Positions 1-17,504 of a stretch of 64,000 nucleotides of DNA are shown piece after piece. The translations under genes and the position numbers were made by a program. The notes below the pieces were generated by a model, which did no database searches, was not told the origin of the DNA, and worked only from the letters and a program-made list of their open reading frames with translations. Position 1 is the first letter of the stretch, and each line of letters begins with the position of its first letter. The stretch covers positions 1 to 64,000 of the forward strand of contig CACCIT010000001.1 of NCBI GenBank assembly GCA_902546145.1. Direction: 5' to 3'. The stretch is from an uncultured Pelagibacteraceae bacterium (lineage in GTDB: Bacteria; Pseudomonadota; Alphaproteobacteria; Pelagibacterales; Pelagibacteraceae).

Positions 1-363
1 ATGTTTCCCTGCTCCATCTATGGCCTCTGACAAAGCAAAACAATTTGCATCATTTTCACAAAACACTTCTTTACCTAGTGCTTTACGTAAATCATTTTGA
101 AAAGGTTTTTTTTCTAACCAACTGATGTTGGGAACGTTTTTAACTAATCCTGTTTGTGGAGAGTGAACTCCTGGATGACAAACACCGATTGGAAGCTCTT
201 GTTTAAACTCTTCTTCTAATTTTTTATGAATATCTCTTATTGCAGTAATAATTTGAGTATAATTTTTTGGGCATGCTATTCTTGATCTGTGTTTTTCTTG
301 TCCATCTTTCTCAAGTACAACACTCTCAATCTTTGTTGCACCAACGTCTATACCTACTTGCAT
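1..363 (-). CDS. ROK family sugar kinase, N-terminal part (gene runs off the left edge)
   Basis: The reading frame opens at an ATG at 363 and stays open to the window edge, giving the first 121 residues. The start MQVGIDVGATKIESV matches the ATP-binding phosphate-1 motif of ROK kinases (DxGxTK). CENDANCFALSEA near residue 105 matches the ENDAN motif that holds the catalytic Asp. ROK members phosphorylate glucose, fructose, mannose or N-acetyl-sugars, or are repressors; no N-terminal HTH precedes the kinase motif, so this is a kinase-type member. It starts 5 bases after the SDR gene and is probably last in the tctCBA-SDR transcript. The substrate cannot be told because the zinc-binding region lies outside the window. 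Confidence 0.82.
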   Translation of the reverse strand, partial: MQVGIDVGATKIESVVLEKDGQEKHRSRIACPKNYTQIITAIRDIHKKLEEEFKQELPIGVCHPGVHSPQTGLVKNVPNISWLEKKPFQNDLRKALGKEVFCENDANCFALSEAIDGAGKH

Positions 364-368
364 AATTA

Positions 369-1118
369 TTAATAAGTCGCTCTACCACCACTTAGATCGA
401 ACACTGCAGCTGTTGAGAAAGAATTTTCTTCGCTTGATAACCAAGCAACCAAAGATGCCAATTCCTCTACTTTAGCAAATTTATTTCTTGGTATTTTTGA
501 AAGCATATAATTTATATGCTCTTCAGTCATTTGATCAAAAATTCTAGTTTTTGCGGCAGCTGGAGTAACACAGTTTACTGCAATATTTTTTTGCGCAAGT
601 TCTTTACCTAAAGATTTAGTTAATCCTATCACTCCTGCTTTTGAGGTACTATAAGCGCTTGCATTTGGATTTCCTTCTTTACCTGCAATAGAGGCAATAT
701 TTACAATTCTTCCATAATCATTCTTAGCCATAAATGGAACAACTGCTTTGCAACAATAAAAGACTGCATTTAAATTTAAGTTAATAACTTTGTTCCACTC
801 TTCTATTGGGTATTCTGCAACAGTAGTGTTCATGCCTGCTACACCGGCATTATTAATAAAGATATCAATCTTACCATGTGATTTTTCAACTTCAGATAAT
901 TTTGAATTAATTGTTTCATAGTTGCTCACATCAACTATTTGATAAGTTAAATTTTCAGAATTTACTTTTTCTAATGCTTTTTTAGCTTCTCCCTCGTCGA
1001 TATCCCAAATTACTACTTTGGCACCAGACTCGATAAATCTTTCAGTAATAGCTAATCCAAAACCTTGAGCTCCACCTGTTACAATTGCTACTCTGTTGTT
1101 TAAATCAAATTTAATCAT
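369..1118 (-). CDS. Short-chain dehydrogenase/reductase (SDR, FabG-like)
   Basis: A 249-residue classical SDR of usual length. TGGAQGFG at residues 14-21 is the dinucleotide-binding glycine motif. NNAG near residue 90 and YSTSK near residue 155, with a Ser about 13 residues before it, are the structural and catalytic motifs. An Asp after beta-2 (VVIWDID) favours NAD(H) over NADP(H). It starts 2 bases after tctA, so it is co-transcribed with the TTT importer and followed by the ROK kinase. This suggests oxidation of an imported hydroxy acid or sugar rather than fatty-acid synthesis. The substrate is not recognisable. Confidence 0.88.
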   Translation of the reverse strand: MIKFDLNNRVAIVTGGAQGFGLAITERFIESGAKVVIWDIDEGEAKKALEKVNSENLTYQIVDVSNYETINSKLSEVEKSHGKIDIFINNAGVAGMNTTVAEYPIEEWNKVINLNLNAVFYCCKAVVPFMAKNDYGRIVNIASIAGKEGNPNASAYSTSKAGVIGLTKSLGKELAQKNIAVNCVTPAAAKTRIFDQMTEEHINYMLSKIPRNKFAKVEELASLVAWLSSEENSFSTAAVFDLSGGRATY

Positions 1119-1120
1119 CT

Positions 1121-2593
1121 TTATTTTTTAATTTTTTTTGCTCTTATTAAAGGAAAAGCTAAAGCAATTAAAGATAAAATAAAGAATGTTAAAGCTATTG
1201 GTCTTGTGAAAAACATTAACCAATTTCCATCAAATATAACCAGAGATTGTCTTAAGGTACCTTCAACTAACTCACCTAAAATCAAACCAATGATAACAGG
1301 AACAACTGAGAAACCGTATCTTCTCATGAAGAAACCAAGCACTCCAAAAAATAACATTATCCAAACATCAATTATAGATTGATTTAATGAATAGGTTCCA
1401 CAAACTGAAACTGCAAAAATCATTGGCCATAATATTTTATTAGGCACTAAAGTTATTCTTGCAAAAATTTTTGCACCAAAAAAACCAAATATAAAGAACA
1501 AAACATTAGCAATAAGCATTGCTCCAAATATTCCATATAAAAAATCAGGTTGCTCTCTAAATAAATCAGGTCCAGGTCTAACGCCATGTATAATCAATCC
1601 AGTTAAAATTACAGCTGTTGTTGCACTACCAGGAATTCCAAGTGCAAGTGTTGGAACCATTGCTCCACCTGTTGCTGCATTGTTTGCAGCTTCAGCTCCA
1701 GCTATACCTTCAATAGATCCTTTTCCAAATTCCTCTGGTTTTTTTGAAAATCTTTTTGCTTCTGAATATCCAATCAAAGAGGCAACTGTTCCACCTTCTG
1801 CCGGCAACACTCCAATAAATGAACCAATACCACTAGATCTTAAAATTGTTTTCCAAGTTTTTTTATAATCATCTTTACTTGGAAGTTTAATTGCTTTTAA
1901 AGCTATTCTGTTGAATACCTGATTAATTAAAGTTGATTGGGTTAACATCTCACTCATTGCAAATAAACCAACCACTACTGGTATAAAACCAATCCCTTCA
2001 GTTAACTCGTTAATTCCAAAAGTAAAACGATCAATTGATGTCATAAAATCTTTACCAACCGTTGAAATTAAAATTCCAAATGCACCTGCAATCAAATTCT
2101 TAATAGGGCTTCCTTCTCCAATTGATGCAAGCATCGTTAAACCAAAAATGGCTAAAGCAAAATATTCTGGCTGACCAAATTCATATGCAAGCTGAGCTAA
2201 TATAGGTGCAAAAAAAACAAGTATAACAACACTAAAAATACCACCAACTGTACTTGATACAGTAGCCATTCCTAAAGCTCTTCCAGCTTCTCCTTTTTGT
2301 GCCAAAGGATAACCGTCTAAACAAGTCGCTGCAGCAGCTGGGGTTCCTGGTGTATTAATTAGAACTGCAGTTATCGCACCACCATAAGTACCTGCACAAT
2401 AAATTGAAGTTAATAATACAATTGCTGACAATGGATCAAGTGTCATTGTAAAAGGTAAAATTAATGCACCCCCAGTTGTTGGACCTAAACCAGGTAACAC
2501 TCCTAAAATTAATCCAAACAATGTTCCAAAAAATAAAACTAATAATAGCTTTGAGCTAAATAAAGGAGCCATCATTAATAATAAATTATCCAT
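1121..2593 (-). CDS. tctA: Tripartite tricarboxylate transporter, large membrane subunit TctA
   Basis: A 490-residue polytopic membrane protein of the TctA family and of usual length (about 500). The glycine-rich stretches GLILGVLPGLGPTTG near residue 30 and GAMVPTLALGIPGSATTA near residue 315 are the two conserved family motifs. It forms the secondary transport channel that works with TctB and the periplasmic receptor TctC. The ATG follows the tctB stop with no spacer, so the two are translationally coupled. Family substrates are citrate, tricarballylate, aromatic acids and other carboxylates; which one applies here cannot be read from the sequence. Confidence 0.95.
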   Translation of the reverse strand: MDNLLLMMAPLFSSKLLLVLFFGTLFGLILGVLPGLGPTTGGALILPFTMTLDPLSAIVLLTSIYCAGTYGGAITAVLINTPGTPAAAATCLDGYPLAQKGEAGRALGMATVSSTVGGIFSVVILVFFAPILAQLAYEFGQPEYFALAIFGLTMLASIGEGSPIKNLIAGAFGILISTVGKDFMTSIDRFTFGINELTEGIGFIPVVVGLFAMSEMLTQSTLINQVFNRIALKAIKLPSKDDYKKTWKTILRSSGIGSFIGVLPAEGGTVASLIGYSEAKRFSKKPEEFGKGSIEGIAGAEAANNAATGGAMVPTLALGIPGSATTAVILTGLIIHGVRPGPDLFREQPDFLYGIFGAMLIANVLFFIFGFFGAKIFARITLVPNKILWPMIFAVSVCGTYSLNQSIIDVWIMLFFGVLGFFMRRYGFSVVPVIIGLILGELVEGTLRQSLVIFDGNWLMFFTRPIALTFFILSLIALAFPLIRAKKIKK

Positions 2594-3106
2594 CTAGCTA
2601 TAATAAATGTTAGTTATAATTCCAGAAGGAAATCTTAGACCTAAAATTGTTTCAAAAAAAATAAAGACAATCACTGGAAAAATAATTCCAACAAGTAATA
2701 AATAAAATATTCTTTTCTCTCCCCAGCAATAAGAAACAAAAATAGATAAAACTGAAATTGCTAAAAAGAAATCTAAAGTTTTTGAGATGATTAAAAAAAT
2801 TACAAAACTTGAAAGTGTTAAATAGAATGATTTTGGTAATTTTTTTTGAACCTTCCAAGGATTTTTTGTTGCTAAATAATATATTAATAAAGTCATAGCT
2901 ATTATTAAAACCAATAGTGCTTTTGGAAAAGTTGCAGGCTGTATTCCTCTATTTAAAATAGGAGGAACAATATCAAAAGTAAAAGTAGTGATTAATAATG
3001 CTACAGAAATAAAAATAATTACAAAAGAGACTTTAAATTCATCTCTAAAAAAAAAGGGCAAACTTTTGTTTGCCCTTTTTTGTTTTTGTACATTTTTCAT
3101 ATGCAA
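2594..3106 (-). CDS. tctB: Tripartite tricarboxylate transporter, small membrane subunit TctB
   Basis: 170 residues with about four hydrophobic segments, fitting the small TctB subunit, and lying between tctC and tctA as in most TTT operons. The N-terminal 25 residues are basic and hydrophilic; the first membrane segment begins with VSFVIIFISVALLI. ATG codons at 3106 and 3100 are both possible starts. Later standard ATG starts would delete the first membrane segment. The odd point is that codons about 9-19 (RANKSLPFF) are encoded by a perfect 14-bp terminator-like hairpin. Confidence 0.85.
   Translation of the reverse strand: MHMKNVQKQKRANKSLPFFFRDEFKVSFVIIFISVALLITTFTFDIVPPILNRGIQPATFPKALLVLIIAMTLLIYYLATKNPWKVQKKLPKSFYLTLSSFVIFLIISKTLDFFLAISVLSIFVSYCWGEKRIFYLLLVGIIFPVIVFIFFETILGLRFPSGIITNIYYS
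3050..3081 (-). terminator. Perfect intrinsic-terminator-like hairpin inside the 5' end of tctB
   Basis: Arms AAAAAAGGGCAAAC (3050-3063) and GTTTGCCCTTTTTT (3068-3081) are exact inverse complements around a 4-base loop. Read on the minus strand, the right arm ends in a T-run of about nine. It lies about 45-75 bases after the tctC stop and entirely within the predicted tctB frame. It most likely ends or attenuates transcripts after the receptor gene, lowering permease expression relative to TctC. Whether ribosomes on tctB antagonise it is inference. Confidence 0.75.
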
Positions 3107-3123
3107 ATGTACTTTTAATTATA

Positions 3124-4098
3124 TTAGTTAATGTAACCTAAAGCTTTTAGCTGAGCAGTCATTTCAGCAAGCATTTCTTCCATTTGCTTACCCCACTCGT
3201 CAGCACCAACTACACTAGTGTCATCAAGACCAATTTCTGTTAAGAAATTTTTGTAATAGTTGTGACCCATTGCTTTAAGCATTCCAGCTTCTAATTGTTT
3301 TACTCTGTCTGCTGGAGCACCTTTTTTAGTTACGAATCCTCTAACAGTAGATAAAGAAACAGGAATTCCTAATTCTTTAGCTGTTGGAGAGTCACCAATT
3401 TTAGCCATTCTTTCGTTTGCTAATACAACTGATACACAAAGTTTACCTTCGTTAATTTCAGTTAATGCTTCACCTAAGTTTAAAACACCTACATCGATAT
3501 CGCCTTTGATAAGGTTAGTTTTAATTGGTGCTACACCTTTGTAAGCAACAATAGTTGGATCTGTTAATCCACCTTTTTTAGTAAATGCAATTGCACTAAC
3601 GTCATCAATACCACCAGTGTGTGTTGTTCCATATTTTAGTGATTTTGATTTTTGCGCGCTAATGAATTTCTTAGCATCTTTAATTTCATTGTTACAGTTA
3701 ACAACAAATAATTGAGGATCGTCTGTTCCTCTTGCTAAAGGCTGCATATCACTTAATTTTACTTTAGTTTTTCCTAAAGCCATTGATACTGCGTGACCAG
3801 TAGTCCAAGTTAAAGTGTGGTTACCATCTGCAGGTAAAGACATCATGTAATCCATAGATGCTGCTCCACCACCACCTTTTTTGTTAACTAACTGCATATC
3901 TTGTTTAAGAACTCTTCTTGCTCTTAATAACATCATTCTAGTAGTAACGTCAGTTCCACCACCAAAACCAGCGTGAGTAATTGCTTGTATTGGATGTCCG
4001 TCAGCTTTTGCTGAAGTGATCATTAATGGAAGAGCTACAACAAAAAATTCAGTTACTAAAAAAGCAGCTGCTAAAAATAGTTTAAAGCTTTTTTTCAT
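3124..4098 (-). CDS. tctC: Tripartite tricarboxylate transporter receptor TctC (periplasmic)
   Basis: About 324 residues. A frame extension of 20 residues upstream exists, but the start at 4098 (MKKSFKLFLAAAFLV) is preferred: it is preceded by a GAGGGAAA ribosome-binding site and opens a clear signal peptide ending near TSAKADG. The mature part carries family features such as AITHAGFGGGTDVTTR and the fold of a Bug/TctC solute receptor. It captures a carboxylate in the periplasm and hands it to TctBA. It is first in the operon and faces a pdxA-like gene across about 160 bases of AT-rich divergent promoter DNA. Confidence 0.93.
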   Translation of the reverse strand: MKKSFKLFLAAAFLVTEFFVVALPLMITSAKADGHPIQAITHAGFGGGTDVTTRMMLLRARRVLKQDMQLVNKKGGGGAASMDYMMSLPADGNHTLTWTTGHAVSMALGKTKVKLSDMQPLARGTDDPQLFVVNCNNEIKDAKKFISAQKSKSLKYGTTHTGGIDDVSAIAFTKKGGLTDPTIVAYKGVAPIKTNLIKGDIDVGVLNLGEALTEINEGKLCVSVVLANERMAKIGDSPTAKELGIPVSLSTVRGFVTKKGAPADRVKQLEAGMLKAMGHNYYKNFLTEIGLDDTSVVGADEWGKQMEEMLAEMTAQLKALGYIN

Positions 4099-4258
4099 TA
4101 TTTCCCTCTTTAGTTTATTTAATTTATATATATAAGTTATATATAAATATATAATCACATTCAGATATAAAACGTAAAGTAAAAAGTGAAAAATATTTGT
4201 TTAGATTATATATATAATATCTATATATAGTTACATTTAGTAGTATTTAAAAAAATTA

Positions 4259-5260
4259 ATGACACAAACAAAAGCTAGTATTGCAGTTTTACTTGGTGAT
4301 CCAGCAGGAATAGGGCCTGAGCTTATTTCAAAATTATTAAGTGAAGAAATAACTAATAAAGCAAATATTGTTGTTATTGGCGAAAAACAAATTCTCGAGA
4401 GTGGAAATAATGTAACTGGCAATTCTCACCAACTTGAAGTCGTAGAAAGCTTTGATCAAATTGATTTTAATAAATCAAACAGATTTTTATTAGATATTTC
4501 AAAAGGTAAAAACCATAAATATAAAATAGCTGAACCCTCAAAAGAATCAGGTGAAAGTGTTTTGGAGGCTTTAGATTTAGCATTAACTCTTGCTAAAGAA
4601 AAAAAAATTGATGCAATCAATTTTGCTCCAATGAATAAAACAAGTTTAAAACTTGGAGGAAATACCCACTCAGATGAATTGCAATTGATGGCAGAAAAAT
4701 TAGATGTAAAAAGTTTTTGTTGTGAGTTTAATGTTATAGATAATTTTTGGACTGCAAGAGTAACCTCTCACATTCCAATTAAAGAGGTTGCACAGCACAT
4801 CACAAAAGAAAATATCTTAAAGCCTATTAAATTAATTAATGAAGTTATGGAATTGAATGGCGTAAAAAATCCTAGAATAGCTGTTCAAGCACTTAATCCA
4901 CATGCGGAATTTGGTACTGAAGAAAAAGATGAAATTATCCCAGCAATAGAGGAAGCAAAAAAACTTGGATTTAATACAGATGGTCCGTTACCGTGCGATA
5001 CATCTTTTGTGGTTGCTTATAAAAATAAAAATCATGATTGTATGGTTGGAATGTATCATGATGCACTTCAGTCTGGACTTAAAGCATTTGGTTTTGACAG
5101 AGGAGTTACAGTTCAAGGTGGGTTAACAGTTCCTGTAACAACTACTGCACATGGATCTGCATTTGCAATTGCTGGTAAAAATGAAGCAAACTTAGCTCCA
5201 ATTTTAAACTCATTTAAAATTGCATTATCAATGGCTGAAAATAAAAAGAAGTTAAGCTAA
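4259..5260 (+). CDS. PdxA-family 4-phospho-hydroxyacid dehydrogenase (PdxA2-like)
   Basis: 333 residues of the PdxA fold. GDPAGIGPE near residue 13 is the family N-terminal motif. The metal-binding histidines are present in TSHIPIKEV, ALNPHAEFG and MYHDALQSG. PdxA oxidises and decarboxylates 4-phosphohydroxy-L-threonine in vitamin B6 synthesis; PdxA2 proteins act on D-threonate or D-erythronate 4-phosphate in catabolism. The HTE motif typical of biosynthetic PdxA is replaced by NTHSDE, and the GEGG loop after NPHA is missing. Its neighbours are transport and catabolic genes, so a catabolic PdxA2-type role is favoured. No partner DUF1537 kinase is in the window. It ends 3 bases from a convergent SDR gene. 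Confidence 0.85.
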   Translation: MTQTKASIAVLLGDPAGIGPELISKLLSEEITNKANIVVIGEKQILESGNNVTGNSHQLEVVESFDQIDFNKSNRFLLDISKGKNHKYKIAEPSKESGESVLEALDLALTLAKEKKIDAINFAPMNKTSLKLGGNTHSDELQLMAEKLDVKSFCCEFNVIDNFWTARVTSHIPIKEVAQHITKENILKPIKLINEVMELNGVKNPRIAVQALNPHAEFGTEEKDEIIPAIEEAKKLGFNTDGPLPCDTSFVVAYKNKNHDCMVGMYHDALQSGLKAFGFDRGVTVQGGLTVPVTTTAHGSAFAIAGKNEANLAPILNSFKIALSMAENKKKLS

Positions 5261-5263
5261 GCC

Positions 5264-6025
5264 TTATATTAAACCAGCATCTACCGTAAAATTTTGTTTA
5301 GTGCATCCAGATGAAACATCTGATGCCAAATATAAAACCATCCTTGAAACATCCTCAGGTAATACTTGTTTTTTAAGACACTGTTTATCAAGAATTTCTT
5401 TTTTAAATTTTGGATTTAACCATAATTTTGACTGTCTTTTAGTTGCAACTGAACCAGGTGCAATGGAGTTTATTCTAATATTATGTTGTCCTAAATCTCT
5501 AGCTAAAGATTTAGTTAAACCATAAATTGCAGCTTTTGCAGTACTATATGCTGGAAACATTACGGCTCCCCTAATCCAACTAACAGAACCTAAGTTTATT
5601 ATTGATCCACCTTTATTTTTAATCATACTTTTTTTAACTGATTGAATAGCAAACAAATAGTGCTTCAAATTTATTGCCATTCTGTCATCCCAGTATTTTT
5701 CAGTAACTTCTTCAAGTGTGTGCCTTTGATCATTGGACGCATTATTTACCAAAATATCAATTGGACCTTTTTTTTTAATAATACCTTGGATAAGAGTTTT
5801 ATATTTTTTTATATTTTTAATATTACAAAATTGGAAAGTAGGTATTTTTTGTTTTTTCTTTTTAATTTTCGAAATTAATTTTTGAGCTTCTTTTTTATCT
5901 ATATCAACAAAATAAACCTCGACACCTTGTTCACAAAGATGTTCAACTATTGATGCACCAATACCTGATGCTCCACCTGAAACTAATGCGCGTTTATCTT
6001 TTAAATCAAAATATTGAACTTTCAT
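5264..6025 (-). CDS. Short-chain dehydrogenase/reductase (sugar dehydrogenase-like)
   Basis: 253 residues, classical SDR. SGGASGIG near residue 17 is the nucleotide motif. NNAS replaces NNAG near residue 91, and YSTAK near residue 159 is the catalytic Tyr-Lys pair. VDIDKKE after beta-2 suggests NAD. It is last in an iolD - Gfo/Idh/MocA - SDR transcript (18 bases after the oxidoreductase). A role as a sugar or sugar-acid dehydrogenase such as galactose/arabinose 1-dehydrogenase types is likely; the exact substrate is unknown. Confidence 0.86.
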   Translation of the reverse strand: MKVQYFDLKDKRALVSGGASGIGASIVEHLCEQGVEVYFVDIDKKEAQKLISKIKKKKQKIPTFQFCNIKNIKKYKTLIQGIIKKKGPIDILVNNASNDQRHTLEEVTEKYWDDRMAINLKHYLFAIQSVKKSMIKNKGGSIINLGSVSWIRGAVMFPAYSTAKAAIYGLTKSLARDLGQHNIRINSIAPGSVATKRQSKLWLNPKFKKEILDKQCLKKQVLPEDVSRMVLYLASDVSSGCTKQNFTVDAGLI

Positions 6026-6043
6026 TTAATTAAGAGTTTATGA

Positions 6044-7201
6044 TTAGTTTAATATTTTTTTTATTTCTTCTAAAGTAAAAGGTTTTGGTTTCTTGCAAGT
6101 TGTTTTTATTTCTTGCGGAATACCTGTTTGAGATGCTCTCATAGTTGAGTCTATTATGTCTAAAACATGCAAAGAAAGCTCACCATTACATCTATGTTCT
6201 AAATTGTTTTCAATTGCATAAGCCATCTCAGATAGACCAGCTCCTCTATAATTTGCATTTGTTGGAGATTCATTTGCTCTTGAGCTTTGACTTTTAATGT
6301 TAATTTTTCCTAAGGGCATCATGTCGGTTTTATGTTCACCCCAATTACCACCAGCAGTTACTGAAACAAAAGCAGATCCACCAAACATATTTGGATCAGG
6401 AACAATAATTGATCCTTTGTTACCATATAGCTCTATGTGGTTTCTTTGATGAGCAACCACATCAAAAGATAAAGTAATCTGTATGATGCAATCATTTTCA
6501 AATTGTATAGTTGCAAGATAAGTTGTTGGAGTTTCTACTTTAAATTTTTGACCTTTTTTTGGGCCTATCCCAATTTCTCTTTCTTCAAAAACTTTTGTAC
6601 ATCTTCCTTGTACTTGTTTTGCTGGACCAATTAAATTTACTAATGCCGTAAGATAATATGGACCCATATCTATTACGGGACCCCCTTCATTTTCAGCAAA
6701 CCAAGGTTCTGGGTTTGGATGATAAGATTGCACTCCAGGGAAAGCAAAAATAGCATTACCTAATTTAATGTCACCAATTACACCGTTATCAATGAGTTCA
6801 CGAGTTTTCTGAATGCCCCCACCCAAAAAAGTATCTGGTGCATTTCCAATATAAAGATTTTTCTCTTTAGCAAGTTCAACTAATTTTTTTCCATCTTCAA
6901 AGTTAACAGCCATAGGTTTTTCAGCATAAGAATGCTTACCATTTTCTAAAGCCATTTTTGAAACTTCAAAATGTGCACCAGGAATTGTAAGGTTTAATAT
7001 TATTTCAATCTCTTTATCTTTAAGAAGTTCTTCAACAGTTACAGCTTCAATATTGTAATGAATTGCACACTTCTTCGCTGTTTCCATGTTAATATCAGCG
7101 CATTTAACAATTCTGACATTATTGAAATACTCCTGAGCTCTAAAATAAGTTTCTGAAATATGACCACATCCTATAAGGCCTACTTTAAATACTTTGTTCA
7201 T
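6044..7201 (-). CDS. Gfo/Idh/MocA family NAD(P)-dependent oxidoreductase
   Basis: 385 residues. GLIGCGHISETYF near residue 8 is the Rossmann glycine motif, and YAEKPMAVN near residue 95 holds the family EKP lysine. The C-terminal part is the alpha/beta substrate domain with GGPVIDMGPYY, where Asp and Tyr line the active site. Such enzymes oxidise or reduce sugar and cyclitol hydroxyls. It begins 6 bases after iolD and precedes an SDR, so it probably acts on an inositol-derived or related intermediate. It is one of three members of this family in the window and is clearly distinct from the IolG at 26570. Confidence 0.88.
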   Translation of the reverse strand: MNKVFKVGLIGCGHISETYFRAQEYFNNVRIVKCADINMETAKKCAIHYNIEAVTVEELLKDKEIEIILNLTIPGAHFEVSKMALENGKHSYAEKPMAVNFEDGKKLVELAKEKNLYIGNAPDTFLGGGIQKTRELIDNGVIGDIKLGNAIFAFPGVQSYHPNPEPWFAENEGGPVIDMGPYYLTALVNLIGPAKQVQGRCTKVFEEREIGIGPKKGQKFKVETPTTYLATIQFENDCIIQITLSFDVVAHQRNHIELYGNKGSIIVPDPNMFGGSAFVSVTAGGNWGEHKTDMMPLGKINIKSQSSRANESPTNANYRGAGLSEMAYAIENNLEHRCNGELSLHVLDIIDSTMRASQTGIPQEIKTTCKKPKPFTLEEIKKILN

Positions 7202-7207
7202 AAAGGA

Positions 7208-9052
7208 TTAAATACCTTGTCTTTGTTTGCTTCTTCCTTCTTTGTAAAGTTTTAAAGCTTCTTCATTTTCTTTAGTAGTTGGAATTTCTAAAGTTGGACT
7301 ATCCCAAAAAGATGATCCTTCTACCCATTTATAAGCATGAGTTTTAATTGAAATAACATAAGTTACATCAGACGCTTTAGCTCTTTTAAATGCAGCTTCA
7401 AGATCTGAAATTGAAGTAACGTGTTCAGATTTCGCACCCATACTCTCTGCATGTTTTGCAAAATCTACATCTACTAAACCAGGAGTATTAGAACTCTTTA
7501 ATAAGTTATTATACTCTTTTCCGCCTTTGAATAATTGAAGTCGGTTTATAACTGCAAAGCCTCCATTATCACAAACAACTATGATCAATTTATTTTTTGT
7601 AATTACTGACGAATAAATATCAGTGTTATTTAATAGATAAGAACCATCGCCAACAAATGAGATCACCTCTTTATCTGGATTAGCCATCTTAATTCCTAAT
7701 GCTCCAGATATTTCATAACTCATACAACTAAAACCCCACTCTGTTTCATGGGTATTAAGTTCTCTTGGTCTCCATACTTGGATTACTTCACCTACCAAAC
7801 CTCCTGCAGCTGTAACTGCAATATCAGTTGGATCAGAATTTCTATAAATAGCACCAATTACCTGAACATAACTTGGAACTTCCTGATTAGTTGGAGCGCT
7901 CTCTTTATCTATATGTTCATTCCATGACTTAAGTTCTGTTTGAGATTTCTTATTCCAATCTTCTCCTGCTTTCCAATCACCTAAGGCTTGAGAAAGTTCA
8001 GTTAATGAAACTTTTGCATCTCCAACAACAGCTTGAGCTAAATGTTTATTAGCATCATATCTTGATACATTGATTGAAACTAGTTTGAAATTCTCATTTT
8101 CAAAGTTTGCCCATGATCCTGTTGTAAAATCAGCAAGTTTTGTACCTACAGCAATAGCAAGATCAGTTTGTTTTGCTAATGTGTTTGTATTTTTTCCACC
8201 AAGTCCTCCAATTTGACCTGCAAAATGAGAATGATCTCTCTTCATTGTTGAATAACCCATTACAGTTTGTGTAACTGGAATATTGTGTTTGATTGCAAAC
8301 TGACTTAACTCTTCCATTGCATCTGAATAAAAAACTCCCCCTCCAGATATAATGATGGGATTTTTTGAAGATTTAATTTTTTCAGCTGCCTCTTTAATTT
8401 GAAATTCATCTGGTCTAGGTCGTCTAATTGTGTGAACTTTTTCTTGAAAAAATTCTTCTGGATAATCAAAAGTTTGACCTTGGATATCTTGGCTTAAAGC
8501 AATACAAGCAGGGCCACAGTCAGCAGGATCTAACATTGTTTGAACTGCTATTGGAAATGATTGAATTATTTGTTCAGGTCTAGTGATACGATCAAAATAT
8601 CTTGTAACTGGTTTGAAAGCATCGTTTGCAGTTACACTTGGATTGTTAAAATGTTCAACTTGTTGCAATACTGGATCTGGCATTCTATTTGCATAAGTAT
8701 CACCTGGTAAAAATAAAATTGGTAATCTGTTACTCATCGCTACTGCTGCTGCAGTAACCATATTGGTTGCTCCTGGGCCAACAGATGAAGTAGCAACAAA
8801 AATTTGTTGTCTTCTTTTTGCTCTGGCATAACCTATTCCAGTTAAAGCCATATTCTGCTCATGATGGCCTCTATAAGTTGGTAATTCTTTTTGATTTTCT
8901 TCAAGTGCCTGACCTAAACACGCCACGTTTCCATGTCCAAAAATTCCAAAGACACCAGGAAAGAGTGGTTCTTTTTTGCCATTAATTAATATTTTTTGAG
9001 CAATTAAATATTTAACGATTGCATGTGCACAAGTAAGAGTGATTTTTTTCAT
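7208..9052 (-). CDS. iolD: IolD-type 3D-(3,5/4)-trihydroxycyclohexane-1,2-dione hydrolase (ThDP enzyme)
   Basis: 614 residues, close to the usual IolD length. The N-terminal Pyr domain has YRGHHEQNMAL with the catalytic Glu near residue 64. SSVGPGATN and the MPDPVLQQVEHFNNP segment are typical of IolD. The C-terminal PP domain carries SFVGDGSYLLNNTDI, the GDG...NN thiamine-diphosphate/Mg site, near residue 468. IolD opens the diketo-inositol ring to 5-deoxy-glucuronate. It leads a minus-strand operon with an oxidoreductase and an SDR. iolE and iolG lie about 17 kb away, and iolB, iolC and iolJ are not in this window. Confidence 0.9.
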   Translation of the reverse strand: MKKITLTCAHAIVKYLIAQKILINGKKEPLFPGVFGIFGHGNVACLGQALEENQKELPTYRGHHEQNMALTGIGYARAKRRQQIFVATSSVGPGATNMVTAAAVAMSNRLPILFLPGDTYANRMPDPVLQQVEHFNNPSVTANDAFKPVTRYFDRITRPEQIIQSFPIAVQTMLDPADCGPACIALSQDIQGQTFDYPEEFFQEKVHTIRRPRPDEFQIKEAAEKIKSSKNPIIISGGGVFYSDAMEELSQFAIKHNIPVTQTVMGYSTMKRDHSHFAGQIGGLGGKNTNTLAKQTDLAIAVGTKLADFTTGSWANFENENFKLVSINVSRYDANKHLAQAVVGDAKVSLTELSQALGDWKAGEDWNKKSQTELKSWNEHIDKESAPTNQEVPSYVQVIGAIYRNSDPTDIAVTAAGGLVGEVIQVWRPRELNTHETEWGFSCMSYEISGALGIKMANPDKEVISFVGDGSYLLNNTDIYSSVITKNKLIIVVCDNGGFAVINRLQLFKGGKEYNNLLKSSNTPGLVDVDFAKHAESMGAKSEHVTSISDLEAAFKRAKASDVTYVISIKTHAYKWVEGSSFWDSPTLEIPTTKENEEALKLYKEGRSKQRQGI

Positions 9053-9147
9053 AATTGGGTTTATTTTTTTTATGTATAATGTTTATATATATTTATATTT
9101 ATAAATTAAAAAACCCAACTTAGTAAACCTTAAAAAAAATAAAAATT
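9053..9147. promoter_or_regulatory. Divergent promoter region with a distant inverted repeat
   Basis: The 95 bases between iolD and the aldehyde dehydrogenase are almost pure A/T, with TATAAT-like boxes (for example TATAAT at 9075-9080). An exact 8-base inverted repeat, TTGGGTTT at 9055-9062 and AAACCCAA at 9111-9118, brackets the region. It is probably the shared promoter for both transcripts. The repeat may be a regulator site pair or chance. Confidence 0.4.
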
Positions 9148-10590
9148 ATGTATAGCAAATTTGGACAATTCATTGATGGAAAATGGCAAGAAGCAGAAAA
9201 AAAAGAGACATATGATGTAATCAACCCTGCAACTGAGGAAGTGATTGGAAAAGCATCAAAAGCATCTTCAGCAGATGTACAAAAAGCATTAAAGTCAGCT
9301 GAGAAAGGTCTTAAAGTTTGGAGTAACACTACTCCATGGCAAAGATCATATGTAATTAGAAAAATTGCAGATCTAATGAGAGAAAAAAAAGATGTTCTTG
9401 CTAAATGGTTAACACTTGAAGTTGGTAAGCCTCTTGCTGAAGGAGTTGGAGAAGTTGGTGGAGGAGCGGATATATTTGAGTGGAATGCAGAAGAAACAAA
9501 AAGAATTTACGGTCAAACAGTTCAGAGTAGATTTCCTGATACAAGAGTTCATGTTTATTATCAGCCAGTAGGAGTTGTGGCTGCTTTAATACCGTGGAAC
9601 TTTCCAATCATTTTAGCTGCAAGAAAAATTTCAACAGCACTAGCTGCAGGTTGCTCTGTAATTTGTAAACCAGATGTAATTACACCTGGTGCAGTTATGG
9701 AATTAGTTAACATTTGCAAAGAAGCAGGTGTTCCTGATGGTGTGGTTAATTTGTTATCTGGTGATCCTGCAGAAATCTCAAATGAATTATTAGAGTCTGA
9801 TATTATTAAAAAAGTATCAATTACTGGTTCAACAAGAGTTGGAAAATTAATTTTAAAGAAAGCTGCAGATAAAGTTCAAAGAGTAACAATGGAACTAAGT
9901 GGTCATTCACCATTCATAGTTTGTGAAGATGTTGATATGAATAAAGTTGCAGATATTGCGATTACTGCAAAATTCAGAAACAATGGACAAGTTTGCATTT
10001 CTCCTAACAGATTTTATATCCAAGAAAATAAAAAAGATGAATTTCTTGGAGCTTTTATGGATAGAGCAAAGAAATTAAAAATTGGAAATGGTATGGATGA
10101 AGGAACTATCTTAGGTCCTTTGACAACTGCAAAAAGATTAGAGGAAATTGAAAAACTAGTTGAGACAACAAAAAATGAAGGAGCCAATGTTTTAATGGGA
10201 GGAAAAAGACCTTCAGGTTTTAACAAAGGTTATTTTTATGAACCAACTGTTTTTGATAATGTAAAAGACGATTTTACGATTATGAGAGAAGAACCATTTG
10301 GTCCTCTTGTACCCGTTCTTACGTTTAAAACATTTGATGAAGTCATTGAAAGAGCAAACAATAACGACCTTGGTTTATGTAGTTATTTGTATACAAATAA
10401 CATGGACCAAGCGAACAGAGGTTCTGAAATGTTAGAGTCTGGTTGCGTTGCTGTTAATACTGGTGCAGTTGCTGTAGCAGAAGCTCCTTTTGGTGGTATC
10501 AAACAAACTGGTTATGGACGTGAAGGTGGATCAATGGCTATCAAAGATTATCTAAACGTTAAATACACTCACATGGCATTAAAGGTATAA
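9148..10590 (+). CDS. NAD(P)-dependent aldehyde dehydrogenase (succinate/ketoglutarate semialdehyde DH-like)
   Basis: 480 residues, the usual ALDH length. PWNFPII near residue 150 marks the cofactor pocket. SITGSTRVG is the nucleotide loop, VTMELSGHSPF has the catalytic Glu, and NNGQVCISPNRF near residue 284 has the nucleophile Cys. EEPFGPLVPV and the C-terminal FGGIKQTGYGREGG are family signatures. Closest in style to GabD and alpha-ketoglutarate-semialdehyde dehydrogenases. It is followed 2 bases later by an HpaI aldolase, so oxidation of an aldehyde released by, or feeding into, that aldolase is likely. Confidence 0.92.
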   Translation: MYSKFGQFIDGKWQEAEKKETYDVINPATEEVIGKASKASSADVQKALKSAEKGLKVWSNTTPWQRSYVIRKIADLMREKKDVLAKWLTLEVGKPLAEGVGEVGGGADIFEWNAEETKRIYGQTVQSRFPDTRVHVYYQPVGVVAALIPWNFPIILAARKISTALAAGCSVICKPDVITPGAVMELVNICKEAGVPDGVVNLLSGDPAEISNELLESDIIKKVSITGSTRVGKLILKKAADKVQRVTMELSGHSPFIVCEDVDMNKVADIAITAKFRNNGQVCISPNRFYIQENKKDEFLGAFMDRAKKLKIGNGMDEGTILGPLTTAKRLEEIEKLVETTKNEGANVLMGGKRPSGFNKGYFYEPTVFDNVKDDFTIMREEPFGPLVPVLTFKTFDEVIERANNNDLGLCSYLYTNNMDQANRGSEMLESGCVAVNTGAVAVAEAPFGGIKQTGYGREGGSMAIKDYLNVKYTHMALKV

Positions 10591-10592
10591 TA

Positions 10593-11387
10593 ATGAGAAA
10601 AAATAAAATTAAACAAATGATGAAAGACGGTAAACCCGTCATTAATGGTTGGTGCGCAATTCCAAGTACTGCATCTGCAGAAGCAATGGCACATCAAGGT
10701 TGGGACTCATTAACTATAGATATGCAGCATGGATTAGTTGATTACAGTAATGCTCTTCCAATGCTTCAAACAATATCGACAACAGATGTCACTCCACTTG
10801 CTAGAGTTAATTGGAATGAGCCAGGACAAATAATGAAAATTTTAGATGCTGGTTGTTATGGAATTGTTTGTCCAATGGTCAGTAATAGAAAAGAAGCTGA
10901 AAATTTTGTTCAAGCATGTATGTACCCACCTGATGGTTACAGAAGCTTTGGTCCTGTTAGAGGATTAATTTATGGTGGTGCAGATTATGCAGATCACGCT
11001 AATGAAGAAATTCTTAAATTAGCAATGATAGAAACTAAAGAGTCTTTAGAAAATTTAGATGAGATAATGTCTACACCGGGTGTTGATGGTATTTATATTG
11101 GGCCTGCAGACTTAAGTTTAGCAATTGGAGAAAAACCTGGCTTTGATCGAGCTGAAACTACAAAAGCTTATTCTGAAATTTTGAGAATTCTAGAACATGC
11201 AAAGAAAAATAATATTTTTGCAGGAATTCATAATGGTACAACAGAATACGCAACGAAGATGATTGAAAAAGGTTTTGATTTTGTAACGATAGCTTCTGAT
11301 TTAAGAGCTTTAAGTGCTGGCGCTAAAGCAACTGTTGATAAGATGAAAGGTTCTTTATCTAAAAAAGACGACGACGCTACTTATTAA
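10593..11387 (+). CDS. HpaI/HpcH family class II 2-keto-3-deoxy acid aldolase
   Basis: 264 residues. The fold and active site are those of HpaI-type pyruvate aldolases. DMQHG near residue 48 holds the catalytic His, PLARVNW the Arg that binds pyruvate, AMIETKES the metal Glu and YIGPADLS the metal Asp. These enzymes split 2-keto-3-deoxy sugar acids into pyruvate and an aldehyde. The gene directly follows the aldehyde dehydrogenase, a common pair in non-phosphorylative sugar-acid pathways. It ends with a 4-base overlap with a convergent PanB-like gene. Confidence 0.9.
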   Translation: MRKNKIKQMMKDGKPVINGWCAIPSTASAEAMAHQGWDSLTIDMQHGLVDYSNALPMLQTISTTDVTPLARVNWNEPGQIMKILDAGCYGIVCPMVSNRKEAENFVQACMYPPDGYRSFGPVRGLIYGGADYADHANEEILKLAMIETKESLENLDEIMSTPGVDGIYIGPADLSLAIGEKPGFDRAETTKAYSEILRILEHAKKNNIFAGIHNGTTEYATKMIEKGFDFVTIASDLRALSAGAKATVDKMKGSLSKKDDDATY

Positions 11388-12199
11388 TCAAGTTGATTTA
11401 AAAATTCTTCAAACTGATTTTTATCTAAATTAGAGGATTGTTTCTTGCTTGGAAACTTTCCAGCCATAGAATCTTTTTTAAATGCTTTAAGAGCTTTAAC
11501 TCTTTCAACCTTAATTTCATTTCTAAGTTTTAATAAATTTCCATAAGCTTTAGAGTGTCTTGGAGGATTTTCAGTATCACCACAAATATCTTCCATAAAT
11601 AAATACATCACATCTGCATTTCTTCCAGATCCTAAAGAGACAGTTACAATATCTGTTCGTTTAGAAATTTCTCCCATTACATTTTCAGGTATTACTTCAC
11701 ACTCAGCAGAAAAAGCTCCTGCATCTTCTAATCTTTTAAATTTTTGGAATAACTCATAAGCCTCATTTGCAGTTTTACCAACTGCTCGAAGTCCACCTAT
11801 CCAAGTTGATTTTCTTGGAACTAATCCTAAGTGACCCATAACAGGCACATCTTCTTTTGCTAGCATTTCTACTATGTCCATACTTCTTGGTGTCATCACT
11901 GCATCAGCACCATTTTCTAAAGCTTTAAATGCTCCACGCATAATATCATCTGCTGTAACAAATTCGTTCAAAACTAAAGCTGCGGTTAAAAAAAGATTTT
12001 TTGACCCTTCTCTAACTGGAATAATATTCTTAGCGTTAGCAATAATCATGTCAAAGCCAGCTTTTTCTGCAGCAGCAGCCTCATCAACAGTATTTGCAGT
12101 AACTTGAGTAAATTTTCTTTTACCTTTGGCTGCTTTTAAATCACCTACTGTAGTTGATCTTTTGGCTGGTTTTGCAGCCCATGTATATATATTCTTCAT
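11384..12199 (-). CDS. Divergent PanB-like (ketopantoate hydroxymethyltransferase superfamily) protein
   Basis: 271 residues. VPVMGHLGLVPRKSTWIGGL near residue 125 and the following helix match PanB, as does AECEVIPENV with the general-base-region Glu. The metal-binding Asp motif of PanB (VGDS) is IIANAKN here, and the substrate Lys/Glu motif (VKIEGG) is VMTPRS. It is therefore unlikely to make ketopantoate. It is the third gene of a DUF1907 - MarR-like - PanB-like operon, and its ATG overlaps the regulator's stop by one base. A retro-aldol or aldolase role on an acid in this catabolic island is a guess. Confidence 0.72.
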   Translation of the reverse strand: MKNIYTWAAKPAKRSTTVGDLKAAKGKRKFTQVTANTVDEAAAAEKAGFDMIIANAKNIIPVREGSKNLFLTAALVLNEFVTADDIMRGAFKALENGADAVMTPRSMDIVEMLAKEDVPVMGHLGLVPRKSTWIGGLRAVGKTANEAYELFQKFKRLEDAGAFSAECEVIPENVMGEISKRTDIVTVSLGSGRNADVMYLFMEDICGDTENPPRHSKAYGNLLKLRNEIKVERVKALKAFKKDSMAGKFPSKKQSSNLDKNQFEEFLNQLD

Positions 12200-12612
12200 T
12201 AAATACCTTTATAAAGGACGTCTCTTCGATCAATAAATTCCTCAAAAGTCTTAATAGTAACAACTGATGGTAAAATAAAAATTGATCTTTTGTCTTTTTC
12301 GTTTCTAATAATTCTAAAATAACCTTTTTTGATTGCTGTATCGATATAAACATTAGAAGTTAAATAAGATTTCTCTATAACTCTTAATAGTTCATTTTTT
12401 GTAATAGATTTATTTTTATAATAAGCAAGCATCACCATGTGCAGCATAATCCAATGTTGAGGTGTCAGAGAAAACCAATTTAATAAATCATTTGCTAACC
12501 TTCCCTCAAAATCTCCAAGTGAAATTTCAGCTAATGTAATTCTTTTTTGAGTTGATTTTGAAATTTTTTTCTGTTCTTCAAAATTTTTTGGATACTTAAA
12601 CTGTCTTTTCAT
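12199..12612 (-). CDS. MarR-like winged-helix transcriptional regulator
   Basis: 137 residues. The middle and C-terminal part looks like a winged HTH: SLTPQHWIMLHMVMLAYY, then a turn and a recognition helix around SYLTSNVYIDTAIKKG, then the beta wing RIIRNEKDKRSIFILP. The DKRS..F.LP pattern is typical of MarR-type wings. It lies between the DUF1907 and PanB-like genes and probably controls them. A 15-base palindrome lies just upstream. It could also belong to another wHTH family; no ligand domain is seen. Confidence 0.62.
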   Translation of the reverse strand: MKRQFKYPKNFEEQKKISKSTQKRITLAEISLGDFEGRLANDLLNWFSLTPQHWIMLHMVMLAYYKNKSITKNELLRVIEKSYLTSNVYIDTAIKKGYFRIIRNEKDKRSIFILPSVVTIKTFEEFIDRRDVLYKGI

Positions 12613-12624
12613 TTAAATAAACTT

Positions 12625-12639
12625 AAACTTATTAAGTTT
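12625..12639. promoter_or_regulatory. 15-bp palindrome upstream of the MarR-like gene
   Basis: AAACTT-ATT-AAGTTT is an exact 6-3-6 inverted repeat. It sits between the DUF1907 stop (12641) and the regulator start (12612). It is a candidate operator for the regulator, although AT-rich palindromes can arise by chance. Confidence 0.3.
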
Positions 12640-12640
12640 T

Positions 12641-13618
12641 CTATTCAATACTATTTTTGCTTAGTAGCTCCTTATAAATGTTATTTACTCTATGCACTTC
12701 TGAAGCTATATTAAAATATCCCTCATATTCGATTTCATCTGGTGTTACATCAAAATGATAATGACCAGCATCTTTATCATGTTCATAAGAATGAAAATGC
12801 GTATGTTCACCAGACTCTCTTAAATTCAATTCTCCTCCTGTAGGATCTCCAGTCCAAAGTACTGTATAACACTGCAATTTTGGACCAACAGGTTCATAAA
12901 ATTGAAGAAAATCTTTTACACACTTCATTTGTTTTGGATCATAGTATTCATGTTTAATATCTTTATAATCTGGTTGAACATGCGATCTTACTTTTCCTTC
13001 TAAAATTCTAAACACACCTGCGATAGCAACATGTTCATTTTCTTTAAGATTTAAATTATTTGATAATGAAGACCTCATTGCTTGCGGAAGTGAACCTTGA
13101 TTACCTGATCTTCCTTTGATTTTTATTTTAATTACTTTTCCTTGTTTACCATCTGTATAATAAATATTTCCAAGTCCACCGTGTTTTCGTGCGCTATATT
13201 TTTCAACAATACATTTTTTATCAGGACTTACTCTTGCAATTATAGATCTAGACTCGTCAGTAATTAAATTTTCATTAATTACTAATTCTCCGCAGTGACC
13301 ATCTAAACACGACATTGCACCAGATCCTGCACCTAAAGCATAAGATTTTTCTGATCCAATCATTTTAGAAATTTCTTGGTAATCAAATTCAGCACCGATA
13401 AAATTAGGATCATGCATGTATGGCTCACCACCAACATCAATGATTTTTTGATTGCCGCTTATCCCTTCAGATGGACAATCCCATTCACGAAGATTAGGAC
13501 AGTCTACAACTTCTACTTCAACATTTTTAAAATTTTCCGAAAGTCCTTTTTTTAATGCATTCGCTATATCTTTAAGTGAATGATTTGTGAAAGTTCCTTT
13601 TTCTATTTTTAATTGCAT
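12641..13618 (-). CDS. DUF1907 / C11orf54 (PTD012)-like metal-dependent protein
   Basis: 325 residues. The protein resembles the human C11orf54 (PTD012) family along its length. GAGSGAMSCLDGHCGELVIN near residue 97 is a conserved block. Near residues 270-285 the motif HTHFHSYEHDKDAGHYHFD provides the HxH...H set that binds zinc in that family, followed by TPDEIEYEGYF. The human protein has ester hydrolase activity in vitro, but the physiological reaction is not settled to my knowledge. It leads the operon with the MarR-like and PanB-like genes and faces a PanE-like gene, suggesting a step in a carboxylate pathway. Confidence 0.75.
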   Translation of the reverse strand: MQLKIEKGTFTNHSLKDIANALKKGLSENFKNVEVEVVDCPNLREWDCPSEGISGNQKIIDVGGEPYMHDPNFIGAEFDYQEISKMIGSEKSYALGAGSGAMSCLDGHCGELVINENLITDESRSIIARVSPDKKCIVEKYSARKHGGLGNIYYTDGKQGKVIKIKIKGRSGNQGSLPQAMRSSLSNNLNLKENEHVAIAGVFRILEGKVRSHVQPDYKDIKHEYYDPKQMKCVKDFLQFYEPVGPKLQCYTVLWTGDPTGGELNLRESGEHTHFHSYEHDKDAGHYHFDVTPDEIEYEGYFNIASEVHRVNNIYKELLSKNSIE

Positions 13619-13705
13619 GATGTTAATAAGCTATAATTTATTTTGCATATTGTCTATAGATAATATATATAATTTCTATACATAAATAATTTTAAAAAGG
13701 TAACG

Positions 13706-14650
13706 ATGATAAATAAAGATTTAAAAGTAGCCGTACTAGGCGCAGGTGCTATGGGCTGCCTGTTTGGAGGATTGCTAGCTGAAAAAGGTTTAAATGTAAC
13801 TTTAATTGACGTTTGGAAAGAACATGTCGATGCAATTAATAAAGATGGTTTGAAAATGGATGGTCACGGTGGTGATCGTATAATTAAAGTTAATGCTACT
13901 TCAGATCCATCATCGTTAGATAAAATGGATGCAGTGATTGTTATGTGTAAAGCAACTGCATTAGAACCAGCTTTAAATAGTATTAAAAATATTATTGGTG
14001 AAAAAACAGTTTTCATGTCTTTTCAAAATGGAATTGGTCATGAAGCAATAATTCAAAGTATTGTTGGAAATGAAAAAGTAATCGGTGGAACAACAACACA
14101 AGCTTCTAATATTTTGGGACCAGGTCATATAATGAACCATGGCGCATTGCCTTCATGGATTGGTGAATATGAAGGAGGTATAACAGAAAGAATTACAGAA
14201 ATAGCTGATACTTTTACTGCACATAATTTAGAAATGATTGCAGCTGAAGATGTTAAAAAAAGAAAATGGATGAAGCTTTTTGCTCTAACAGCAATTGGTC
14301 CTCTTTCAGCTATATTTGATCTACATCACACCGATCTTTACGTAAATAATAAGGCTAATGATGTTTCAAGAGGGCTTGGTAAAGAAATCATTTTAGAGAC
14401 AAGAGAAGTAGCACTTGCTGATGGAGTTAATGTTTCTGAAGATGAGTGTCTATTTATGTTCAATAAAATTGTAGATTCTATGCAAACTAACAAATCTTCA
14501 ATGGCTTTTGATGTTCAGTACAAAAGAAAAACAGAAATTGATTTTATAAGTGGTGCTGTTTCTAAAATTGGAAAAAAACATGGAGTAAAAACGCCTTTAA
14601 ATGACCTGATGTATAAAATGATTAAGGTTAAAGAAGGTATGTATAGTTAA
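13706..14650 (+). CDS. PanE/ApbA-like 2-ketoacid (ketopantoate) reductase family protein
   Basis: 314 residues. LGAGAMGCLFGGLLAE near residue 10 is the NADP-binding motif of the ketopantoate reductase family, and VMCKATALEPAL and SFQNGIGHE are family blocks. The C-terminal helical domain has KWMKLFALTAIGPLSAI, where PanE normally has a Lys followed by conserved Asn residues; the Lys is kept and the Asn residues are lost. TEIDFISGAV keeps the substrate-binding Glu. It probably reduces or oxidises a branched 2-keto/2-hydroxy acid rather than ketopantoate. The next gene's ATG overlaps its stop (TAATG). Confidence 0.8.
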   Translation: MINKDLKVAVLGAGAMGCLFGGLLAEKGLNVTLIDVWKEHVDAINKDGLKMDGHGGDRIIKVNATSDPSSLDKMDAVIVMCKATALEPALNSIKNIIGEKTVFMSFQNGIGHEAIIQSIVGNEKVIGGTTTQASNILGPGHIMNHGALPSWIGEYEGGITERITEIADTFTAHNLEMIAAEDVKKRKWMKLFALTAIGPLSAIFDLHHTDLYVNNKANDVSRGLGKEIILETREVALADGVNVSEDECLFMFNKIVDSMQTNKSSMAFDVQYKRKTEIDFISGAVSKIGKKHGVKTPLNDLMYKMIKVKEGMYS

Positions 14651-15519
14651 TGCTTAAAATAAATCGATTAAAAAAAATTAAAAGTAATTTTCCTGTACTA
14701 GTTGGAGACAAAGTTGTTGAGAAAAATACTTGCAATTTATTAATTGATGAAATTAGTAAATCTAAAGCTTTTGACGACATGATTATGGGTGGTCGAAGTA
14801 GAATTAATAAAGGCTCAAAAAATTTTAATAACTATATTAAATCTTCAAATAATTCTGCAAAACTCTTCAAACTTTTTAATAGCAAAGCATTTTATAAAAA
14901 AATTGAAACTCTTTTTTCTAAAAATTTTAAAGATGGATCTTGGACAAACACTCACAAACCAAAAATATTTAATCAAAAGAAATTTACTATTAAAAAGAAA
15001 TTAAATTCGAGTGAGTTAAAAAAACTATTAGGAAATAATTATACTAACCCAAAAGTTAATTTAGATATTGATTTTTCGGTTTCTAAAGGAGGATACAGAT
15101 TGCGTCCCCATAGAGATGATATTACCAGATTGTATAATTTCTTAATTTATCTAACAGATATCCCAAAAAAAAATGGAGGATCGCTTACAATCTATAGAAA
15201 AAAATCTAAGAAAAATTTGAGAAAAAGTTTCAGAAGGTTTCCAAAAATGAGTGAATTAGAAGTGGTCAAAGCTTTCACACCAAAGAAAGGAACTGTGGTA
15301 TTTTTTCAATCAACACCAAATTCTTATCATGGAGTTAAGCGTTTTATAGAAAAAAACTGTCCAAAAAGATTTTTTATTTATGGAAGTTATGCACTCAATA
15401 AACCTGTTATTTGGAATTTTAAAGGAACAGCTTACTATCCACATATCATCAATACTAAGAAAAAAATGTTAACTTCTTTTCATGATGCAAATTATTTAAC
15501 AATTGCTCCTAAGAATTGA
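14650..15519 (+). CDS. Fe(II)/2-oxoglutarate-dependent oxygenase family protein
   Basis: 289 residues, strongly basic. PHRDD places the HxD iron ligands at about His154 and Asp156. NSYHGVKRF gives the distal His at about residue 227, and KRFFIYGSY about 15 residues later supplies the Arg expected to bind 2-oxoglutarate. Between them, LYNFLIYLTDIPKKNGGSL is the usual core of prolyl-hydroxylase-like enzymes. It is translationally coupled to the PanE-like gene and followed by a PhyH-type oxygenase. The substrate is unknown. Confidence 0.78.
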   Translation: MLKINRLKKIKSNFPVLVGDKVVEKNTCNLLIDEISKSKAFDDMIMGGRSRINKGSKNFNNYIKSSNNSAKLFKLFNSKAFYKKIETLFSKNFKDGSWTNTHKPKIFNQKKFTIKKKLNSSELKKLLGNNYTNPKVNLDIDFSVSKGGYRLRPHRDDITRLYNFLIYLTDIPKKNGGSLTIYRKKSKKNLRKSFRRFPKMSELEVVKAFTPKKGTVVFFQSTPNSYHGVKRFIEKNCPKRFFIYGSYALNKPVIWNFKGTAYYPHIINTKKKMLTSFHDANYLTIAPKN

Positions 15520-15550
15520 TATTATTAAAAAATGCTACTAGGTTCAATTA

Positions 15551-16534: not shown

Positions 16535-16546
16535 AAAAATTAACAA

Positions 16547-17467: not shown

Positions 17468-17504
17468 GTTATTCAATTTAAGTTAAAAATATATATAAAT
17501 AAGT

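Follow-up and report, generated by a model that had tools for sequence, protein, structure and literature searches.

Binding-protein transporters are central to the biology of the SAR11 clade, whose genomes have next to no intergenic space, and the means by which such a genome makes more receptor than permease is a question on which the locus described here bears. The window (the whole stretch of DNA analysed, i.e. the first 64 000 nucleotides of contig CACCIT010000001.1 from an uncultured Pelagibacteraceae bacterium) encodes a tctCBA operon, and the original prediction had placed a strong intrinsic terminator within the first codons of tctB. What, then, does a terminator-type hairpin do inside the coding sequence of a permease gene?

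All three genes lie on the minus strand in the order tctC-hairpin-tctB-tctA, with the receptor gene before the hairpin (hereafter P2) and the translocator genes after it. The substrate-binding receptor is encoded by tctC (3124..4098; PF03401 TctC, E 1e-18), whose ATG at 4098 is preceded by AGAGGGA and whose stop codon occupies 3126-3124, and the small and large membrane subunits are encoded by tctB (2594..3100; PF07331 TctB, E 1.6e-10) and, downstream in the same operon, tctA (1121..2593; PF01970 TctA, E 6.2e-160). TctB belongs to PF07331 with 41.7 bits (curated cut-off 29.1), the match beginning at residue 28 of the TTG-started open reading frame, and it is the N-terminal extension of around 18 codons that carries P2. 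As read from their ORFs, the genes on either side of the operon encode two short-chain dehydrogenases, a PdxA-like protein and a Gfo/Idh/MocA-like protein (ORFs 369-1118, 4259-5260, 5264-6025 and 6044-7201), and given these neighbours the substrate of the transporter may be a sugar acid or similar compound.

P2 (3050..3081, minus strand) reads AAAAAAGGGCAAAC-AAAA-GTTTGCCCTTTTTT from 3081 to 3050, followed by TTT, and forms 14 uninterrupted pairs (five of them G-C) closed by a loop of 4 nt. A U-tract of nine U's (3047..3055) lies directly after CCC, its first six U's also being able to pair with the A-run of the P2 5' arm. The fold of this region (91 nt) reached −27.3 kcal/mol with a z-score of −6.6, and none of 200 shuffles was as good; the plus strand also folds here, as the repeat is inverted. 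The perfect 14-bp stem with a long U-run inside the tctB frame was therefore correctly predicted, as was the encoded peptide, QKRANKSLPFF. P2 starts at nt +20 of the tctB ORF, 19 nt past the AUG and 42 nt past the tctC stop, occupies codons 7–17 and, together with the U-tract (3081-3047), covers codons 7–18. A G+C-containing stem directly before a U-tract is the mark of an intrinsic terminator, and P2 has it, although it lies wholly within the tctB coding sequence and not between genes as terminators of the type described in PMC9045158 do. P2 had the highest pair number among the 10 terminator-like sites listed for positions 1-20000 of the window; this number of sites, obtained with a lax definition, is near chance (8.8 expected), so that P2 is notable for its stem and not for the count.

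A protein search with TctB across 399 genomes of the source genus gave a match in 131. The alignment used below has 115 rows (the window plus 114 genomes of its genus, one row per genome), each match having been fetched, showing at least 50% identity and running from residue 1; the lowest identity was 62%, and the TctB of the window has relatives at 97–98% identity, which suggest that its source is a Pelagibacter. Left out were L119 (in which tctB is frameshifted further downstream and the hairpin is present by eye), the partial matches with N-terminal residues in G062, G148 and G330, and matches that lacked the N-terminus or fell below 50%. The hairpin was found in frame in all 115 rows, with folding energies of −16.0 to −24.3 kcal/mol (median −19.5), and tctB stayed open for at least 150 codons in 114 of them, the remaining row ending at a contig end. 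The T-run directly after CCC was nine long in 91 rows, eight in 20, six in three and three in one, i.e. eight or nine T's were retained in 111/115. Loop insertions of 3 nt in L008 and L100 keep the frame, and L118 has a re-made 13-bp stem with just three T's after CCC. The genome collection also held 72 named loci (titles Pelagibacteraceae, Pelagibacterales or Ca. Pelagibacter) that overlap the 115 rows and contribute 24 new start regions, 71 of the 72 being open through the hairpin. In one named single-cell genome (L216:1988-2053) the 5' arm is longer by a single A and the tctB frame is broken, a homopolymer error and a real lesion being indistinguishable in this case.

The same rows correct the start codon. 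The original prediction had tctB begin at 3106, which is a TTG, and an in-frame upstream TTG occurs in just 29 of the 115 rows, whereas the ATG at 3100 (3098..3100), 23 nt after the tctC stop, is present in every one. As judged from sequence, tctB thus starts at this conserved ATG and not at 3106, with MKNVQKQKRANKSLPFF as its predicted N-terminus. Later starts were rejected: codons 2–45 contain no in-frame ATG in any of the 115 rows, the TTG at codon 14 (112 rows) or 15 (two rows) falls within the hairpin itself, and neither the TTG at codon 26 (4/115) nor the GTG at codon 45 (15/115) is conserved. No Shine-Dalgarno-like sequence could be read upstream of the ATG. The start codon, the Pfam match and the family C genes described below together indicate that the frame of this tctB (family A) runs on through the P2 hairpin.

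A second inverted repeat, absent from the original prediction, sits between the tctC stop codon and P2. This element, P1 (3088..3112, minus strand; GTACATTT-loop-AAATGTAC), holds the tctB ATG in its loop and is proposed from its fold and its conservation. GTACAT upstream of the start and ATGTAC at +7 are present in 115/115 rows at variable spacing; GTACAT lies anywhere between 10 and 18 nt from the ATG, which rules out a DNA operator of fixed spacing. The five outer pairs are invariant in the 88 distinct rows while the inner pairs are not maintained, an invariance that cannot by itself prove pairing. Val4 is encoded by GTA in 114/114 cases (33% elsewhere), and codon 5 always has C as its first base while its residue varies. 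The P1 pattern occurs once in the 898 kb of the source genome that were covered. A covariance model of P1 plus P2 (R1), run with stricter filters, scored at least 67 bits in 63/247 genomes of the order, all of the same genus; the next best score in the order was 44.6 bits, with weak matches in other genera. A dispersed element was discarded, as this site is the sole strong R1 match in the source genome (103.9 bits); the next scores were 40.3 bits for its opposite strand and 38.0 bits elsewhere. A known RNA family was likewise discarded: the Rfam matches listed were all below their gathering scores and fell on the generic terminator part, the best of them being MicX (E 0.00022; 30.5 bits against a cut-off of 75).

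Is the conserved object the RNA or the peptide that it encodes? As the rows are related and not independent, the figures that follow are effect sizes rather than probabilities. Across the 88 distinct rows P2 was paired in 98.8% of cells, and four pairs had changes on both sides. Out of 500 shuffles none reached the covariation score or the count of double-changed cells, and three had as many double-changed pairs; further pair types were unremarkable (86/500). When the partners were slid, no more than 63.6% of cells were paired and the score rose no higher than 0.048, as against 0.060 for P2 itself. The four co-varying pairs require 3, 3, 4 and 6 changes on a tree from which the hairpin codons had been left out, counts that include wobble states and L118. 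Compensation runs across codons: AGG-GCA..CCC-TTT is replaced by GGG-ACA..TCC-CTT in 17/114 rows, which alters residues encoded by both arms (R-A..P-F to G-T..S-L, i.e. R>G, A>T, P>S and F>L). Conservation in related genomes had been suggested as a check on both the hairpin and the N-terminal residues; the hairpin is kept in 115/115 rows, and some of the residues change along with the compensating pairs.

Synonymous differences per codon pair amounted to 0.015 in codons 7–17, compared with 0.22 in codons 19–30, 0.35 in codons 31–60 and 0.29 in codons 61–168, so that synonymous change in the hairpin codons was 15–24 times below that in the rest of tctB, and in codons 14–18 it was 0.0006 against a nonsynonymous value of 0.13. 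Rare codons are frozen, e.g. CCC for Pro15 (96/96; 7% elsewhere in the gene) and TTG for Leu14 (113/113; 10%), with Asn11 being AAC in 96% (22% elsewhere in the gene) and the U-tract Phe codons 16–18 being TTT in 318/318 (87% elsewhere in the gene). With L118 excluded, the 11 wobble cells were all G.U on the RNA of tctCBA sense and none was A.C, and the eight other mismatches were all at the outermost pair. Strict conservation, co-variation, the sense-strand wobble bias and the synonymously frozen U-tract together show that the P2 RNA hairpin itself is under selection in the sense direction; conservation of the U's is in part conservation of the stem, given that six of the nine can pair with the A-run. 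This selection on the RNA bears out the expectation of a terminator-type hairpin predicted to lower tctBA relative to tctC, and makes P2 a natural example of codons and residues being fixed by the structure of the RNA rather than by the function of the protein.

Other tctB genes of the genus show further arrangements. When 121 genomes of the genus were searched with PF07331, 50 gave a match, and 30 loci were fetched. Family B (24 loci, 18 distinct start regions) carries a terminator-like stem, AGAGCAGTGA..TCACTGCTCT or a variant, followed by a U-tract; its only usable start is a GTG inside the 5' arm, and the first membrane segment begins in the codons of the 3' arm and U-tract. By eye, the sequence of this hairpin is unrelated to that of family A. 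Co-variation in family B is thin, with one pair changed on both sides, a number matched in 470/500 shuffles, and a covariation score that was equalled when the partners were slid by two columns. Several family B rows (L124-L153) carry another small hairpin immediately behind the tctC stop, approximately 15–50 nt before the GTG; its arms vary from row to row but still pair (e.g. AATCC/GGATT, AACC/GGTT), giving a two-hairpin layout. In family C (L011, L012, L014, L128, L132 and L136, of the same genus) an intergenic hairpin precedes tctB, whose start corresponds to family A codon 18; these tctC/tctB junctions have strong hairpins (e.g. GGGGG/CCCCC) with no U-run and are possibly RNA barriers rather than terminators. 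The single family D locus (L135) has a GCGCCC/GGGCGC hairpin with no clear U-run in an N-terminal extension, 30–75 nt upstream of the Pfam match. Two loci were left out of the families, L141 because the frame read was not TctB and L151 as an intergenic hairpin of another type. In other Alphaproteobacteria, five of 25 tctB loci from a longer match list had a hairpin under a laxer −8 rule and two (L301 and L302) at −10, neither of the latter with an unbroken U-run.

We consider it likely that P2 is an internal, and probably partial, intrinsic terminator of tctCBA, which would leave tctC mRNA abundant and tctBA mRNA low. Polymerase that has passed tctC would meet P2 and its U-tract 42 nt beyond the stop codon, where many transcripts would end; the terminated tctC mRNA would be abundant and protected at its 3' end, and a minority of transcripts would read through into tctBA, giving an excess of receptor over permease. 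Its position inside the permease gene would follow from a tctB start codon that precedes P2, and the approximately 18 extra TctB residues would be whatever peptide P2 encodes. For termination, its partial efficiency and the receptor excess this reading draws on precedent. According to the available text of PMC9045158, ABC importers of cellulolytic Clostridia have internal terminators after their binding-protein genes, demonstrated by Northern blot and reporters, with stem-loops terminating 20.7–96.1% of transcription. As with P2, the hairpin stands just behind the binding-protein gene, and partial termination (predicted in our case) sets the ratio of receptor to permease; the energies are also comparable (−10 to −38 kcal/mol in that report vs −16 to −24 in the P2 rows). 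The clostridial terminators described there are intergenic (in regions of > 50 bp), follow a 5' binding-protein gene and belong to ABC systems, whereas P2 is a predicted terminator within the coding sequence of a permease, its operon encodes an alphaproteobacterial tripartite tricarboxylate transporter, and selection acts on the coding RNA. A natural premature 3' end with a predicted hairpin lies 148 nt into potB of Borrelia burgdorferi, a permease gene in the operon of a binding-protein transporter (PMC10319736); unlike in tctCBA, that system is, in the text available, spermidine-responsive, with the receptor gene last and the cause of the 3' end unsettled.

Within the same clade, structured RNA candidates of 'Ca. 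Pelagibacter ubique' (PMC2704228, as far as its accessible text describes them) include motifs made of serial hairpins, in one of which the first stem is invariant, as well as a U-tailed hairpin near transporter genes. That study screened intergenic regions, so that an ORF-internal hairpin lies outside its scope, and neither 'tct' nor 'tricarboxylate' occurs in its main text. More generally, terminators in coding sequences would escape screens of intergenic regions. The arrangement is unreported in the literature covered, much of it in partial text and with few subscription journals, on terminators (in SAR11, inside coding sequences, in stoichiometry and at start codons), on tricarboxylate transporters and on non-stop mRNA. 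Internal terminators behind binding-protein genes are known, and what would be new is the placement inside the permease coding sequence.

Could termination at P2 be conditional? An unlikely alternative is a regulated attenuator, in which a protein, small RNA or ligand bound to P1 chooses between termination at P2 and read-through. The GTAC core of P1 and its neighbours, invariant across the 88 distinct rows with no compensatory change, together with the fixed GTA of Val4 and the C-first codon 5, would allow sequence-specific recognition. The P1 arms, however, are not complementary to P2 and no antiterminator was visible by reading or folding, and the single occurrence of the P1 pattern in the source genome and the lack of an Rfam family at its gathering score also speak against it.

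Slightly less likely again is that P2 acts as a stable 3' barrier, the polycistronic mRNA being cut downstream and exonucleases halting at P2, which would give the tctC part a longer life than tctBA. This too would lead to receptor excess, and the strong family C junctions without a U-run are of the kind that such a barrier would use; L118, in which a 13-bp stem is kept with three T's, also speaks for a barrier, fitting one as well as it fits a terminator. The U-tract would nevertheless be unneeded for a barrier alone, and it is as frozen as the stem, both in its TTT codons and in the length of its T-run, which favours termination at P2.

The original prediction had also allowed that ribosomes starting tctB might disrupt the hairpin. 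The overlap of hairpin and ORF makes such melting, and hence read-through, physically conceivable, and attenuators of the pyrBI type do act via close coupling (PMC4824070). The E. coli construct described in the accessible part of that paper nevertheless retained most of its efficiency with a terminator 30 bp behind the AUG, translation costing only about 10%, and terminators > 30 bp beyond an upstream stop codon were maximally efficient; at 19 and 42 nt, respectively, P2 would be expected to terminate efficiently with little control by ribosomes. With no Shine-Dalgarno-like sequence and a strongly folded start region (rank 2/422, see below) also arguing against fast initiation, we regard ribosome-linked control as improbable. 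Least credible of all is a hairpin that is a mere by-product of protein conservation or that has its role in antisense transcription. The symmetry of the repeat and its A-run, which would give a U-rich tail on the other strand, speak for it, but nonsynonymous change exceeds synonymous change in the P2 arms and wobble pairs are G.U on the sense RNA in 11/11 cases.

Termination at P2 would have a further consequence, in that the terminated tctC mRNA would carry the tctB start without a stop codon. The plasmid W48 of PMC4824070, with a terminator 30 bp inside its second ORF, has nearly the same geometry; in the text available it is an artificial construct that uses lambda tR2 and lacks start-codon masking. 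A stop-less mRNA was made from it, and the upstream reporter was halved until the start was silenced, which suggests that a stop-less tctC mRNA would be costly and that there would be reason to hide its start. The tctB start may thus be masked on the terminated mRNA, by the P1 loop in family A and by pairing of the GTG within the stem in family B, a proposal that we put forward tentatively, as somewhat less probable than not. It is also possible that translation of tctB on the read-through mRNA is coupled to ribosomes leaving tctC. If it terminates as proposed, P2 offers a test case from nature for the fate in the cell of terminated mRNAs with a start codon and no stop; tmRNA was present in all three genomes searched (the source genome, G106 and G022). 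That the streamlined SAR11 genomes more generally place receptor/permease terminators in the first codons of permease genes, with base pairing dictating the N-terminal peptide and a hairpin masking the start from ribosomes on the stop-less mRNA, and that two tctB families have come to this by way of unrelated sequences, is more doubtful still.

The genomic background was taken from a relative, G106, with terminator-like hairpins defined by a stem of at least 8 pairs, an energy of −10 kcal/mol or lower and at least 6 T in 9, and with genes called by a simple ORF rule. Over 800 kb this gave 59 hairpins, of which 43 were intergenic, 12 interior to genes, one at a gene end and three at gene starts. 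The last comprise the family A tctB, the family B tctB and a doubtful site in a dehydrogenase gene (loop of 24), in agreement with the earlier remark that a hairpin overlapping coding sequence is unusual. Twelve of the intergenic hairpins lay between co-directional genes < 150 nt apart, and in 7/12 the upstream gene encoded a binding protein by Pfam; internal terminators behind receptor genes may thus be common in SAR11. Five binding-protein/permease junctions (two TRAP DctP/DctQ and three ABC) had strong intergenic terminator-like hairpins, and two more binding-protein genes had such a hairpin before other genes (RbsD, TerC); examples of these sites are L279:241-321, L169:356-432, L165:7190-7257, L164:13892-14007 and L173:9989-10065.

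By folding energy, the two tctB start regions ranked second and third of 422 in 400 kb of G106. The most strongly folded of the 422 (−33.5 kcal/mol) is that of G106:C1:308631-309936, an odd ORF prediction that may be spurious and overlie an RNA gene. Within co-directional runs of the same genome, terminator-like hairpins also followed a bacteriorhodopsin-like (proteorhodopsin-type) gene (L265:5205-5312) and an ammonium transporter gene (L170:10876-11109).
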